NCBI RefSeq assembly: GCF_015244675.1
Contig: NZ_JABCQO010000003.1
Location: forward strand, 1-64,000
Reading direction: 5' to 3'
Length of the DNA stretch: 64,000 bases
Source: Gluconobacter cerevisiae
GTDB lineage: Bacteria; Pseudomonadota; Alphaproteobacteria; Acetobacterales; Acetobacteraceae
Shown: piece after piece, positions 23,393 through 27,766 of the stretch
Numbering within the stretch: the stretch's first letter is position 1
How the letters are laid out: each line of letters opens with the position of its first letter
The notes under the pieces: model-generated
The model's input: only the letters and a program-made list of their open reading frames with translations
Databases searched by the model: none
Told to the model about the DNA's origin: nothing
Position numbers and translations under genes: made by a program

Positions 23393-24133
23393 TCAGACGG
23401 GCGTAACCCCACCCGTGACAGCCTGGTAGGTCGCAACAGCCAGTGTCATGGGCTCGAACGGCTTCGTGATGACGAAGGACGGCTCCTGCGTTTCACCTGT
23501 GAGCAAGCGCTCTGGATAGGCCGTAACGAAAATAACCGGCGCTTCATGGGTCCGCAGGATACGCCCTACAGCCTGCATGCCGTCACCGCCGCCGCCGAGA
23601 TTAATGTCTGCAAGAATGAGGCCGGGTTTCGTTTTTGCTGCCAATGCGACGGCATCGGCCTCGGTATGCGCGACACCTGCAATTTTGTGGCCACAGCGTT
23701 CGACCAAATCCTGAATATCCATGGCGATGATTGGTTCGTCTTCGATAATCAGAACGCTGGTCTGCGCAATTTCCTGAAGTCCTTCACGGGCTTTATTGAG
23801 TTCAGCCGCCGCCTGTTCGTCGGTCATCCCCAAAGCATGTGCACTGGAAGCCAGTGATTGTTCTTCAAGGGATGTCAGCAGAAGAAGAGCGCGCTGACGC
23901 AGTGGCATACCGATGTTGGCATCCGCACCATGCCGTTTCATGAATGCACTTACCAGCAGACCGTAGAGAGCCTGTCGCGCAGAAAGATCACTCCTGCGTG
24001 AACTGTCCACCAATTCTTTTAAAGCAATAGCTACGAGTTGATCGCCCGTTTTCTGATCACCAATCAAGGCGCGGGCAAAGCGACGGGCGTAGGGAAGCGC
24101 CTTGACGAGTTCCTGACGTGCCGGATCGGTCAT
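23393..24133 (-). CDS. phyR: General stress response regulator PhyR
   Basis: Anti-anti-sigma factor: when phosphorylated, its sigma-like domain titrates NepR and frees EcfG. Residues 1-125 are a sigma2/sigma4-like domain (LPYARRFARALIGDQKTGDQLV); residues 126-246 are a receiver with acidic pair Glu131/Asp132, phospho-acceptor Asp176 (LILADINLG), Thr204 (VIFVTAYPERLLTGE, a phrase typical of PhyR) and Lys224. 246 aa. It diverges from ecfG1 across 136 bp, with nepR and the kinase close by, which makes the assignment firm. Confidence 0.95.
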   Translation of the reverse strand: MTDPARQELVKALPYARRFARALIGDQKTGDQLVAIALKELVDSSRRSDLSARQALYGLLVSAFMKRHGADANIGMPLRQRALLLLTSLEEQSLASSAHALGMTDEQAAAELNKAREGLQEIAQTSVLIIEDEPIIAMDIQDLVERCGHKIAGVAHTEADAVALAAKTKPGLILADINLGGGGDGMQAVGRILRTHEAPVIFVTAYPERLLTGETQEPSFVITKPFEPMTLAVATYQAVTGGVTPV

Positions 24134-24269
24134 GTGTCGCTGGCCCCCTGAAAAGATATCTGTTGATCCATCCCGATCGGATGCATCCTGTTATGAAGGT
24201 TGAATAACCATGACACGATGACCAATCTGCGTATAGTCTCCGTGACTGCGCGGCCATCTGGAATGTCGC

Positions 24270-24875
24270 GTGAAGGATTTTCTTCTGAGCACATCCGCAT
24301 CCGACGGGCATTCGCCAGGCCTGCCGCCTCAAAAAACGAACTTTCATCGTGACCTGCTTCAGGCTCTCCCGGATCTGAGAGGTTTCGCACGTTTTCTGAC
24401 GCGGGATATAAGCGCAGCCGATGATCTGGTTCAGGACACGATTGTCCGCGCACTGGCTTCTCAGGATCAATTCCAGCAAGGGACTGTCCTGAAAGCGTGG
24501 CTGTTCACAATTCAGAGAAACGCTTTTTACGAGCAGACACGTCGACGCAGCCGCGAACAGGAAATCATGCTCGATATCGAACTCGACATGCAGCCATCAA
24601 CCGCCGCCCCGTCTCGCCAGAGCGCCCGCGATGCTGTTCAGGACCTGGGAGAGCTTTTGTGGAAACTTCCGGATTTACTGCGTGAGGCATTGATCCTCGT
24701 TGGGGGGCAGGAACTCTCTTATGAAGATGCAGCCCGGGTCTGCGATGTGCCCGCCGGGACAATGAAGGCGCGCGTTTCCCGCGCCCGCGCCCAACTCGCA
24801 GAACTGGCCGTCATATCGTCCTCCATCTCAGGAGAAAGTGCCGAAAAAATATCGCCGGAATCCCGGGCTTTTTAG
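24270..24875 (+). CDS. EcfG-type sigma factor, copy 1
   Basis: RNA polymerase sigma factor of the ECF15/EcfG group. Region 2: LPDLRGFARFLTRDISAADDLVQDTIVRAL, with WLFTIQRNAFYEQTRRR for -10 contact; region 4: LPDLLREALILVGGQELSYE followed by VPAGTMKARVSRARAQL. It starts at GTG 24270 with a longer, less ordered N-terminus (about 28 residues) than copy 2. 201 aa. It faces phyR and is followed 103 bp later by a second EcfG-like gene. Confidence 0.92.
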   Translation: MKDFLLSTSASDGHSPGLPPQKTNFHRDLLQALPDLRGFARFLTRDISAADDLVQDTIVRALASQDQFQQGTVLKAWLFTIQRNAFYEQTRRRSREQEIMLDIELDMQPSTAAPSRQSARDAVQDLGELLWKLPDLLREALILVGGQELSYEDAARVCDVPAGTMKARVSRARAQLAELAVISSSISGESAEKISPESRAF

Positions 24876-24978
24876 AGTAATTTCTTTGTCTTCAAATTTT
24901 TTTTCGTCCGGATGCAACATTTTCGATCAACCATTCATTGATCTCCTGAAAACAGAGTGAAATTCAGGAGTCAGTTCC

Positions 24979-25554
24979 ATGACGTTCCACGATCAGGTCA
25001 TTGCCATTCTTCCGAAGCTGCGTGTTCAGGCTCTTTCTCTGACCCGCAACCGGGCTGCCGCCGAAGATCTCGTACAGGACGCCGTGTGCAACGCTCTGGC
25101 CGCACAGAACAGCTTCATTCCCGGCACGAATTTTTCGGCCTGGATGCACCGCATTCTGCGCAACCGCTTTATTTCCGATCTTCGCAAGCGCCGCGAGACA
25201 ACTGATATTGACGATGTACCCGCTTCGTCCTTCGCCAGCCCGGCAACCCATGAAGACAATCTCGCCCTGAAGGATCTGTCGATGGCGCTGTCCCGCCTTC
25301 CGTCCGACCAGCGTGAAGCGCTTGTCATGGTCGTGATTCAGGGCATGAGCTACGAAGAACTGGCTGAAGCAACGGATTGCGCCGTTGGTACGGCAAAAAG
25401 CCGTGTCTTCCGTGCACGTCGTCAGCTGGAAGCCTGGATGAGTGGAGACCTTCCGGCGAATGACAAGCTTCGCGTAAAGGTCAAGGCGCTGCGCGATGCC
25501 ATGGATGCCCGTAGCCGTGCCGGGCGGCCGTGCGACGATCTCATGCTGTCCTGA
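24979..25554 (+). CDS. EcfG-type sigma factor, copy 2
   Basis: Second EcfG-like sigma. Region 2: LPKLRVQALSLTRNRAAAEDLVQDAV and WMHRILRNRFISDLRKRRE; region 4: LPSDQREALVMVVIQGMSYEELAEATDCAVGTAKSRVFRAR. 191 aa. The AGGAGTCAGTTCC stretch before the ATG provides a ribosome binding site. It differs enough from copy 1 to be an old duplication. The nepR gene follows after 167 bp. Either sigma could be the main NepR partner; copy 2 has the more canonical sigma2 sequence. Confidence 0.92.
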   Translation: MTFHDQVIAILPKLRVQALSLTRNRAAAEDLVQDAVCNALAAQNSFIPGTNFSAWMHRILRNRFISDLRKRRETTDIDDVPASSFASPATHEDNLALKDLSMALSRLPSDQREALVMVVIQGMSYEELAEATDCAVGTAKSRVFRARRQLEAWMSGDLPANDKLRVKVKALRDAMDARSRAGRPCDDLMLS

Positions 25555-25561
25555 CCCTGAT

Positions 25562-25678
25562 ATCCGCAATAAAACATCCCAATCCATTGCGGATTGGAAG
25601 CAATTGCAGAAAACGCTCTGTTTTCGTAAGACTGTTTCTGGCAGTTCATCCCGCAACGGTTTCTTAAAAGAAAACCGT
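25562..25678 (+). promoter_or_regulatory. Structured leader between ecfG2 and nepR
   Basis: Several inverted repeats crowd this spacer. ATCCGCAAT (25562-25570) pairs with ATTGCGGAT (25586-25594), and overlapping it CCAATCC (25579-25585) pairs with GGATTGG (25591-25597), so the two hairpins exclude each other. GAAAAC/GTTTTC at 25609-25625 and AACGGTTTCTT/AAGAAAACCGT at 25655-25678 follow. This arrangement could attenuate or process the message before nepR. No rho-independent T tail is convincing. Confidence 0.4.
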
Positions 25679-25721
25679 AGTTCGCGCCATAATCAGTATC
25701 AGGAAGGTTCGGGACCAGCCA

Positions 25722-25895
25722 ATGACCGCAGGAGACAAGCGGAAGTCTTCAGTCGAGGATACCAGGGCAGAAAATCAAGAATCGCCCTTTGGTATCTGGC
25801 TGAGCCGAGGCCTACATCAGCTTTTTGATGATGTAGCAAACGAGCCGATTCCCGATGAGCTTCTCCGACTGATCGAGGAAGATCGAAACAAGTGA
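25722..25895 (+). CDS. nepR: Anti-sigma factor NepR
   Basis: 57-residue protein whose C-terminal half, GLHQLFDDVANEPIPDELLRLIEE, carries the NepR signature (LyxxVxxEPIPDxLlxLi) that binds both EcfG and phosphorylated PhyR. The N-terminal half is charged and disordered, as usual. Its stop overlaps the GTG of the kinase gene by 4 bases (GTGA), so the two are translationally coupled. The gene is short and easily missed. Normally nepR precedes ecfG; here it lies behind two sigma genes. Confidence 0.92.
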   Translation: MTAGDKRKSSVEDTRAENQESPFGIWLSRGLHQLFDDVANEPIPDELLRLIEEDRNK

Positions 25896-27766
25896 CTGTT
25901 ATCCGGTCTGGTTCTCCAGACCTGAAGCCGCGACGCTGGCACCGTCTGTTTCACAGGCGCAGTGCTCTGCGTCATATCCGGATGCTCGACACAGTCGGCG
26001 CCCGGGTCATGGCGTTGATCGTCGCCACCACTCTTCCTCTCGCAATCATCGCATCCATGCTTGCCTGGCACAGCTACCAGCAGAATGTTGGTAACAGTGC
26101 CCTGCGTACCGAACGCGATACACAGCTCGCGATTTCGGAAATCACAACAGATCTGGATCAAACCCATACGCTTCTGGATATGTTGGCTGACGGCGATATC
26201 TCATCAGGGAATGCGCTACGGGAATTCGCACTCGTCCAGACCGTTTCCCAGCACCATTACTGTCTGTTGATGCTGACAGATGTAGAAGGGCGACCATCGG
26301 TTGTACTACCTTCTCCTTCGACGCAGGATCCGGCAATCTGTCACTCTCAGGAACACACATCATCGTCGATGATGTCTGCTTCGGCCAAGCTTCCCGTTGT
26401 CGGGATTGACGTCCTGAAGGGAGACAGGGGCCCCCTCCTGAAATTTGTTGTTCCCATTCTCAATAACAACTCTGTTTCTGGTTACATCATTGCCGTTCGA
26501 ACTCTGGGTTGGCAGCGAAGTCGTTTGCCAAAAGGCGACAGTCGCCTTCTTCTCGGGACAGACAATCATTCCCAGCATTTTCTGGCGATGCCGGATGGTT
26601 CTCTCTTTTCGCTTTTTCCGGACCGTCCCGTCGCAGCAAAACTGCCCTCAAAAGCAATGGCCCGTCTCGAACGGGATATCGCCTCCCTGAGCCAGCATGA
26701 TGTCTTTACGAGTCAGGGCATCACATATGCCTTCCAGAACGCTTACGGACCGGTCAGCCTGATTGTCGTCACCGAACGGACTGCCGAGGAAAGTCACGCC
26801 CTCAATATCTTTCTGATCCGGGTCAGCCTGATTGTTGGTCTGCTCGTGCTGGAACTGCTGGGCGTTGCATTGGGTGCAAGCATCTTTCTGGTCGCCCCTC
26901 TCGAAAAACTTGCGCTTGCCGTTGCGGACTGGAGGAGGGGTGCACTATTCGCCCCCAGAAACAATCATTCGATTCCTCTTGAAATCCGACATCTGGAAAA
27001 AGCTTTCCTGCGCGCCACACGTCGATTGACCCAGCATGAAAAGGATCTGGAACAATCCGCCCGGAATCAGGACATGCTGATCCGGGAGATCCATCACCGC
27101 GTGAAAAACAACCTGCAGGTCGTAGCATCCCTACTCAACCTTCAGGCAAGCCGCATCCGGTCGCATGAAGCCCGCGAAGAATTCCGTCTCGTGCGTGACA
27201 GAGTAAGGGCGCTCGCGACCCTGCACCGCTACCTTTATTCAGAAAGCGGTCTTTCGGCGCTGGACGTCCAGAGCTTCCTTGAAGAGCTCTGCAGCATTCT
27301 ACTGTCGGCCAACAGCATGAATGCCCAGACCCGTATCCGACTTCGACTCGATATCGAACACGTCCTGATCTCGCCCGATCAAGCCGTACCGATTGCGCTC
27401 ATCGTAACCGAAGTCCTCAGCAACGCCCTGCGATATGCGTTCCCTGGCGAACGGGCAGGGCATATCATGATTGCCCTTCACAAGGTCGTCCCGGCAGATC
27501 CTGAAAAAGAAGGACTTGTGGAGCTAAAACTGGGTGATGACGGTATTGGCATTGATGCCGGTCAGGCCAGCGAGTCCCGGACTCGCAGGGAAGGGATCGG
27601 AATGCAGCTCATTCGCGGTTTTGCCCGGCAAATCAATGCGGACATGACGGTTAGCAATGAAAACGGAACCTGGTATACTCTGCGCTTTATTCCAGAACGT
27701 CCGTCTCTTACGGCACTCGCCATGGCGCGCAAGGCCATTAGTCATGAAGAAGACTCGGCACGGTAA
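25892..27766 (+). CDS. HisKA_2-family membrane sensor kinase (PhyK-like)
   Basis: Likely kinase for PhyR. Two transmembrane helices (about 36-58 and 306-334) flank a 245-residue periplasmic sensor domain of CHASE-like layout. A HAMP-like linker leads to the HisKA_2 box IREIHHRVKNNLQVVASLLNLQ with phospho-acceptor His401; the ATPase domain has VLSNALRYAFPG (N box), DDGIGID and GIGMQLIRGFA (G boxes). 624 aa from a GTG at 25892 coupled to nepR. The HRxKNN form of the histidine box is the one known to feed PhyR. The signal sensed is unknown. Confidence 0.9.
   Translation: MTVIRSGSPDLKPRRWHRLFHRRSALRHIRMLDTVGARVMALIVATTLPLAIIASMLAWHSYQQNVGNSALRTERDTQLAISEITTDLDQTHTLLDMLADGDISSGNALREFALVQTVSQHHYCLLMLTDVEGRPSVVLPSPSTQDPAICHSQEHTSSSMMSASAKLPVVGIDVLKGDRGPLLKFVVPILNNNSVSGYIIAVRTLGWQRSRLPKGDSRLLLGTDNHSQHFLAMPDGSLFSLFPDRPVAAKLPSKAMARLERDIASLSQHDVFTSQGITYAFQNAYGPVSLIVVTERTAEESHALNIFLIRVSLIVGLLVLELLGVALGASIFLVAPLEKLALAVADWRRGALFAPRNNHSIPLEIRHLEKAFLRATRRLTQHEKDLEQSARNQDMLIREIHHRVKNNLQVVASLLNLQASRIRSHEAREEFRLVRDRVRALATLHRYLYSESGLSALDVQSFLEELCSILLSANSMNAQTRIRLRLDIEHVLISPDQAVPIALIVTEVLSNALRYAFPGERAGHIMIALHKVVPADPEKEGLVELKLGDDGIGIDAGQASESRTRREGIGMQLIRGFARQINADMTVSNENGTWYTLRFIPERPSLTALAMARKAISHEEDSAR

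Follow-up and report, generated by a model that had tools for sequence, protein, structure and literature searches.

A putative GSR locus of Gluconobacter cerevisiae

The analyzed DNA, from here on the window, is a stretch of 64,000 nucleotides of Gluconobacter cerevisiae (contig NZ_JABCQO010000003.1, positions 1 to 64,000), taken from a source genome of 3.0 Mb in 40 contigs. It holds a putative general stress response (GSR) locus with the genes for the regulator PhyR, two sigma factors (EcfG1 and EcfG2), the anti-sigma factor NepR and a sensor kinase. Open reading frames (ORFs) and domain searches of the window gave the order phyR / ecfG1-ecfG2-nepR-kinase (Table 1). This order, and a translational coupling of nepR to the kinase gene, had already been proposed in an earlier, sequence-only reading of the same DNA; the order was borne out, and the stop of nepR does overlap the start of the kinase gene, by 4 bp (GTGA). 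The canonical GSR order, nepR followed by ecfG, is not that of this locus.

Table 1. Genes and candidate promoter features of the GSR locus (window positions).
Feature	Position	Strand	Remarks
phyR	23393-24133	-	246 aa; sigma-like domain and receiver; divergent from ecfG1
sigma-70-like promoter candidate for ecfG1	24210-24237	+	ATGACA-16-TATAGT; pattern scan, 10/12 positions
ecfG1 (EcfG-line sigma)	24285-24875	+	probable CTG start at 24285; longest ORF from GTG 24270
ECF-type promoter-like element upstream of ecfG2	24912-24939	+	ATGCAAC-N17-CATT
ecfG2 (deep sister line of EcfG)	24979-25554	+	Sigma70_r4_2 62 bits; slow-evolving
nepR (anti-sigma factor)	25722-25895	+	57 aa; PF18557 32 bits
HisKA_2 sensor kinase	25892-27766	+	GTG start; PF07568 85 bits, PF02518 37.5 bits

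PhyR scored above the cut-offs of NF006623 (277 bits), PF22029 (46 bits) and PF00072 (51 bits), which places it among the PhyR proteins, and its solved relatives by sequence are PhyR structures. Its sigma-like domain is short, with about 18 residues unmatched between the two halves when compared to the PhyR structure 3n0r. EcfG1 and EcfG2 are both above the cut-offs for Sigma70_r2 and Sigma70_r4_2, and the closest solved structure by sequence is the same for both, 5uxx (E ~1e-33, 'RNA polymerase sigma factor'), which we take to be a Bartonella EcfG-type sigma. PF22029 was passed by EcfG1 (52 bits, cut-off 27) and not by EcfG2 (23.6 bits). EcfG2 shares 99% identity with its counterpart in Gluconobacter kondonii NBRC 3266. 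NepR carries the PF18557 motif (cut-off 25.7 bits) and is closest among solved structures to 3t0y, 'NepR' (E 8e-5); its score with the NCBIfam equivalog NF051865 was 27 bits, where the cut-off is 100. The kinase combines HisKA_2 and ATPase domains and is thus of the HWE/HisKA_2 class, and its C-terminal 285 residues are PhyK-like at 146 bits, far below the equivalog cut-off of 750. Since the domain and structure-relative scores exceed chance, the gene identities hold.

Distribution of the gene order

Three collections were examined. A search for PhyR (E<=1e-40) in 200 Acetobacteraceae genomes found it in 116 of them, at 120 loci, all of which were classified from their ORFs (the family set). 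The named set consists of the best 80 of a longer list of EcfG2-profile matches; it is biased toward EcfG2 and near relatives and shares some genomes with the family set. In a sample of the class, PhyR was present in 22 of 142 genomes, including the source genome, at 23 loci besides that of the window.

Two sigma genes followed by nepR stand behind phyR at 89 of the 120 family loci. Six have EcfG2-nepR without EcfG1, ten have the canonical nepR-sigma order, one more (G018) carries its canonical pair on the opposite strand, and the remaining 14 are truncated at contig ends, split or of some other kind. Within the biased named set, phyR, EcfG1, EcfG2 and nepR were all found at 70/80 loci; five loci, all from Gluconacetobacter, lack EcfG1, four show EcfG2-nepR-kinase with phyR and EcfG1 outside reach, and one stops at a contig edge past EcfG2. 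By reading, 12 of the 23 class loci are canonical, nine are other or partial, and two, from two different families (L169 and L171), are tandem. The phyR/ecfG1-ecfG2-nepR layout is therefore the commonest among the sampled Acetobacteraceae genomes that have the switch, and the term 'unusual' used in the sequence-only reading applies with respect to the textbook order but not within this family. Two genomes have, besides a tandem-type phyR locus, another phyR accompanied by a different nepR (L150 and L100 in G059, L151 and L142 in G162), so that a single cell may contain two switches there.

ORF starts were assigned mechanically as the longest possible, so only exact stop/start overlaps are sure. 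The exact 4-bp overlap between nepR and the kinase gene occurs at 16 of the 75 named loci with both genes and at 12 of the 14 Gluconobacter loci with the kinase, and with these mechanical starts the two genes abut or overlap by any length at 43/75. Their spacing is +70 bp in both G. frateurii and Gluconobacter sp. Gdi, and elsewhere it goes from an overlap up to +364 bp or more.

Two lines of sigma factors

A quick tree was built with every third EcfG1 and EcfG2 row, the rows of the window and all canonical and class rows. The main tree, of 78 rows, took 15 random rows of each line from that set plus those of the window, after removal of three long-branch EcfG1 rows. In the main tree EcfG1 groups with the canonical EcfG (ECF15, an extracytoplasmic function, or ECF, sigma group) proteins with support of 97/94, and the EcfG1 clade includes the first sigma of both tandem loci from outside the family (96/83). 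EcfG2 forms a clade with the second sigma of the same two loci (96/89), sister to the sampled EcfGs and inside the larger set with respect to other ECFs (99/93). The quick tree gave the same picture for EcfG1 (support of 94 for its grouping with canonical EcfGs and of 97 for its own clade) and placed EcfG2 weakly (49). Because the outside tandem sigmas fall with EcfG1 and EcfG2, respectively, the pair looks old and of a single history, and a recent tandem duplication of ecfG was ruled out by the tree. The two sigmas described as EcfG in the sequence-only reading are indeed both EcfG-like, but they represent two anciently different lines.

The two lines evolve at different rates. In comparisons of the window with 15 named Gluconobacter, the median nonsynonymous divergence (dN) was 0.128 for ecfG1, 0.0235 for ecfG2, 0.0595 for phyR and 0.0635 for nepR; that of the kinase was 0.070 (14 Gluconobacter loci). 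The computable ratios of nonsynonymous to synonymous divergence (dN/dS) were below 0.23 for every gene of the locus and, by these comparisons, both sigmas are under purifying selection. Mean identity in EcfG1 is 81% in the DNA-recognition region and 20% in the linker.

EcfG1 is missing from several genomes. The EcfG1 profile found no EcfG1 in the five named Gluconacetobacter, two of which hold another EcfG-like gene (104-107 bits) that is placed elsewhere in the tree. It is also missing in four genomes that kept EcfG2 (G028, G115, G175 and G020). Since EcfG1 is present in G168, from the genus of G028 and G115, and in G044, from the genus of G175, the sequences indicate that it was lost at least three separate times.

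The element upstream of ecfG2

Aligned Gluconobacter sequences have a common block before ecfG2. Its column table shows ATGCAAC, then 12 loosely conserved bases, then CCGTTCATTG, that is, GCAAC-N17-CATT. The pattern G[GC]AAC-N15-18-C[GA]TT was found within 220 bp upstream of ecfG2 at 64/80 named loci, with 0.7 expected from shuffles that preserve base composition only, not dinucleotides. It is present in all 15 named Gluconobacter; because the alignment of this genus was already known when the pattern was defined, the 49/65 outside it is the fairer count. By eye, the 16 misses comprise seven Acetobacter with GTAAC for GCAAC, four loci (L268, L269, L277, L288) with GCAGC, and the five Gluconacetobacter. 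A slightly wider pattern matched before 71 of 96 family EcfG2 genes. Of the occurrences of TGCAAC-N16-18-C[AG]TT in the 795 kb of the named loci, 56 lie before ecfG2 and five elsewhere.

Among the genomes that lost EcfG1, G028 and G115 kept the element as GCAAC-N17-CATT and have no EcfG1 anywhere, G175 has GCAAC-N16-CGTT (by eye) and G020 has neither form. EcfG1 therefore cannot be the sole user of the element, and for the same reason we prefer that ecfG2 is probably autoregulated by EcfG2 through the element, with possible help from EcfG1. As a concrete candidate promoter, the element is a seed for a regulon search.

NepR and its likely partner

At no fewer than 14 of the 95 family loci with EcfG2-nepR, the stop of ecfG2 runs into the start of nepR, with 1 or 4 bp shared by the two genes, and one genome (G088, L087 2829-3764) has a natural in-frame EcfG2::NepR fusion of 311 aa, which may be a sequencing error. 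These overlaps and the fusion make EcfG2 the likelier partner of NepR. Where phyR and EcfG1 are missing at the EcfG2 site, both lie together elsewhere in the three genomes checked (A. conturbans, Acetobacter sp. UBA5411 and the metagenome-assembled genome of L288; the short contig L270 was left out). In these relocations, as in the losses, nepR stays with ecfG2 and not with ecfG1.

The 167-bp gap between ecfG2 and nepR (25555-25721) contains blocks around CATTGCGGATTGG and TTTCGTAAGACTG that are common to most aligned Gluconobacter, and in the window also the near-palindrome CGGTTTCTTAAAAGAAAACCG. These features could represent an attenuator or an internal promoter.

The start of ecfG1

The window and all 15 named Gluconobacter have a Shine-Dalgarno sequence, AAGGA, followed after seven (once eight) nucleotides by an in-frame CTG. 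The codon that immediately precedes AAGGA, the place of 24270, is neither GTG nor ATG in five of the 15: G. kanchanaburiensis and G. thailandicus have no in-frame ATG, GTG or TTG from the upstream stop as far as the sigma domain, G. frateurii has an ATG six bases past the CTG, and the other two have starts further upstream. The simplest reading is that ecfG1 probably starts at CTG 24285, which would keep EcfG1 low; in the other species translation could instead begin at the GTG or ATG. Most of 12 aligned Gluconobacter sequences are similar over the sigma-70-like stretch before ecfG1.

Other sigma, kinase and NepR-like genes

The EcfG1 profile (E<=1e-6) had no match in the source genome beyond ecfG1 and ecfG2 of this locus. 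Sigma region 4 gave four other matches of at least 20 bits, two FecI-like and two LuxR-type regulators as judged from the ORFs. HisKA_2 was above its cut-off three times: in the kinase of the locus, in a second one (87 bits) and in a third one (29 bits). The second (L216, C2:120795) has a bacteriophytochrome-like N-terminus by ORF reading and is a possible further input to PhyR.

A second nepR elsewhere in the genome, which the sequence-only reading had named as a finding that would speak against it, was weakly indicated. Besides the nepR of the locus, the NepR profile matched a 66-aa ORF on contig 1 near 399,250 (L179 6914-7114, minus strand), which scores 19.8 bits with PF18557, below the cut-off. 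It lies in a conjugative island, with arsenic-resistance genes on one side and TraG/T2SSE-type conjugation genes on the other. The ORF is identical over 66/66 residues in another genus (L183), and 55/66 residues are identical in three more genomes (L180-L182). Because of this identity across genera it is probably a mobile NepR; a comparison with PLSDB plasmids gave no match.

Proposed mechanism and alternatives

On balance, we lean toward an EcfG2-NepR-PhyR switch that is probably autoregulated and in which EcfG1 is an accessory. We infer the partner switch itself from the known PhyR-NepR-EcfG systems, and likewise infer the sigma bound by NepR, the autoregulation and the role of EcfG1. Two modules would face each other, phyR with ecfG1 and ecfG2-nepR-kinase. 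In the resting state EcfG2, and perhaps EcfG1, would be held by NepR. Upon stress the kinase, probably together with others, would phosphorylate PhyR, whose sigma-like domain would then titrate NepR away. Free EcfG2 would transcribe its regulon and, from ATGCAAC-N17-CATT, its own ecfG2-nepR unit, thereby amplifying the response and making the brake that ends it. EcfG1 would be a dispensable EcfG, probably constitutive at a low level. A bolder version, which we put forward tentatively and would not bet on, is that Acetobacteraceae harbor a second deep GSR line, EcfG2-NepR-PhyR, with its promoter preference shifted to ATGCAAC-N17-CATT, and that the original EcfG, EcfG1, was demoted to a primer or accessory sigma, poorly translated from its CTG start and discarded by several lineages.

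Several observations weigh against the autoregulated EcfG2 switch. The element is near-unique: TGCAAC-N14-16-TTCATT has two sites in the source genome, one of them here, and at the spacing of the locus it occurs only once in 3.0 Mb, which is odd for the promoter of a global regulator unless other promoters are looser. Canonical sites do not supply a regulon either. GGAAC-N16/17-CGTT has no occurrence in the 64-kb window and 49 in the genome, compared to 39 for the reversed control; with no enrichment and no regulon seen, canonical sites were dropped as a regulon guide. The related GGAAC-N16/17-[CG]GTT, counted against the same kind of base shuffles, precedes phyR at 7/29 non-tandem loci (0.2 expected) and 2/90 tandem ones (0.3), and within tandem loci it lies in the ecfG1-ecfG2 gap at 3/90 (0.4 expected) and in the ecfG2-nepR gap at 4/81 (0.1); a few tandem loci may thus use canonical-type EcfG promoters. 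The sigma-70-like pattern that would serve ecfG1 was found at three sites, with 2.9 in shuffles. Finally, in a co-variation (mirror-tree) analysis of the 67 of 120 loci that had all six regions, the partial correlation of NepR was about equal with EcfG1 (0.21) and EcfG2 (0.18), and was 0.02 with the kinase and -0.15 with the PhyR sigma-like domain. Co-variation says little here and does not separate the two sigmas as partners of NepR.

The alternative that survives best, which we nevertheless consider doubtful, is a hierarchy with a constitutive EcfG1 as the only sigma acting on the ecfG2-nepR-kinase promoter. It has a working precedent, since PMC7083833 and PMC8103513 describe such an arrangement; in the former, a constitutive EcfG, the EcfG2 of Sphingopyxis, drives a nepR-ecfG unit, nepR2-ecfG1. 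An EcfG1-driven promoter predicts what was found in Gluconacetobacter, where all five named loci without EcfG1 also lack the element, and the element persists in three genomes with ecfG1 elsewhere (two GSAAC, one the GCAGC variant). The conservation of the DNA-recognition region of EcfG1, in contrast to its linker, fits as well. However, the five EcfG1-less loci probably belong to a single clade and hence go back to one event, in which one deletion could have taken both EcfG1 and the element, and G028 and G115 contradict EcfG1 as the sole driver.

It is quite improbable that EcfG1 is the true target of NepR and EcfG2 an ECF sigma outside the switch. EcfG1 is the one that groups with canonical EcfGs and passes PF22029, but nepR travels with ecfG2, overlaps it at some loci and is once fused to it, and the closest solved relative of EcfG2 is still 5uxx. 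Least likely of all is the proposal of the sequence-only reading that nepR-kinase coupling fixes the ratio of the two proteins while two sigmas, as is possible, compete for one NepR: the overlap is real and kept in most Gluconobacter, but the distance varies, the genome encodes two further HisKA_2-class kinases and a weak second NepR-like gene, and NepR does not co-vary with the kinase.

Comparison with known systems

Acetic acid bacteria have to cope with acid, ethanol and heat. Our literature search, which left most subscription journals outside, found no paper naming both EcfG and 'acetic acid bacteria', and none naming NepR, EcfG, PhyR and Acetobacteraceae. Reviews such as Staron and Mascher 2010 and Fiebig 2015 may already show the layout. 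For G. oxydans 621H, PMC5756330 lists two possible ECF sigmas, and the terms 'anti-sigma' and 'stress response' are absent from its main text. The role of EcfG paralogues is a long-standing question that the conserved two-sigma layout and the natural losses of one sigma make testable in Gluconobacter.

PMC4814048 and PMC8103513 give nepR-ecfG as the usual order and describe paralogues. With the canonical PhyR-NepR-EcfG locus depicted there, the Gluconobacter locus shares a phyR divergent from the sigma/anti-sigma unit and an HWE/HisKA_2 kinase nearby. It differs in that nepR lies behind the sigmas, two sigma lines are present, the PhyR sigma-like domain is shorter, and GCAAC...CATT rather than GGAAC...CGTT precedes the sigma. 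Sphingopyxis granuli TFA (nepR2-ecfG1 / ecfG2; PMC7083833) also has two EcfG-type sigmas at one locus and a nepR-sigma unit with a 4-bp overlap. However, its ecfG2 is divergent, nepR comes first and the promoter consensus is GGAAC-N16-CGTT, whereas in Gluconobacter the sigmas are collinear and nepR is last. According to PMC3892343, about half of the genomes hold multiple EcfGs. Paralogous EcfGs are known from R. etli (EcfG1/EcfG2) and M. extorquens (EcfG1-6), and PMC3892343 and PMC4814048 report no detected NepR binding for most of the six EcfGs of M. extorquens. In these two species the extra copies lie away from phyR, whereas in Gluconobacter the two sigmas form a conserved tandem beside it.

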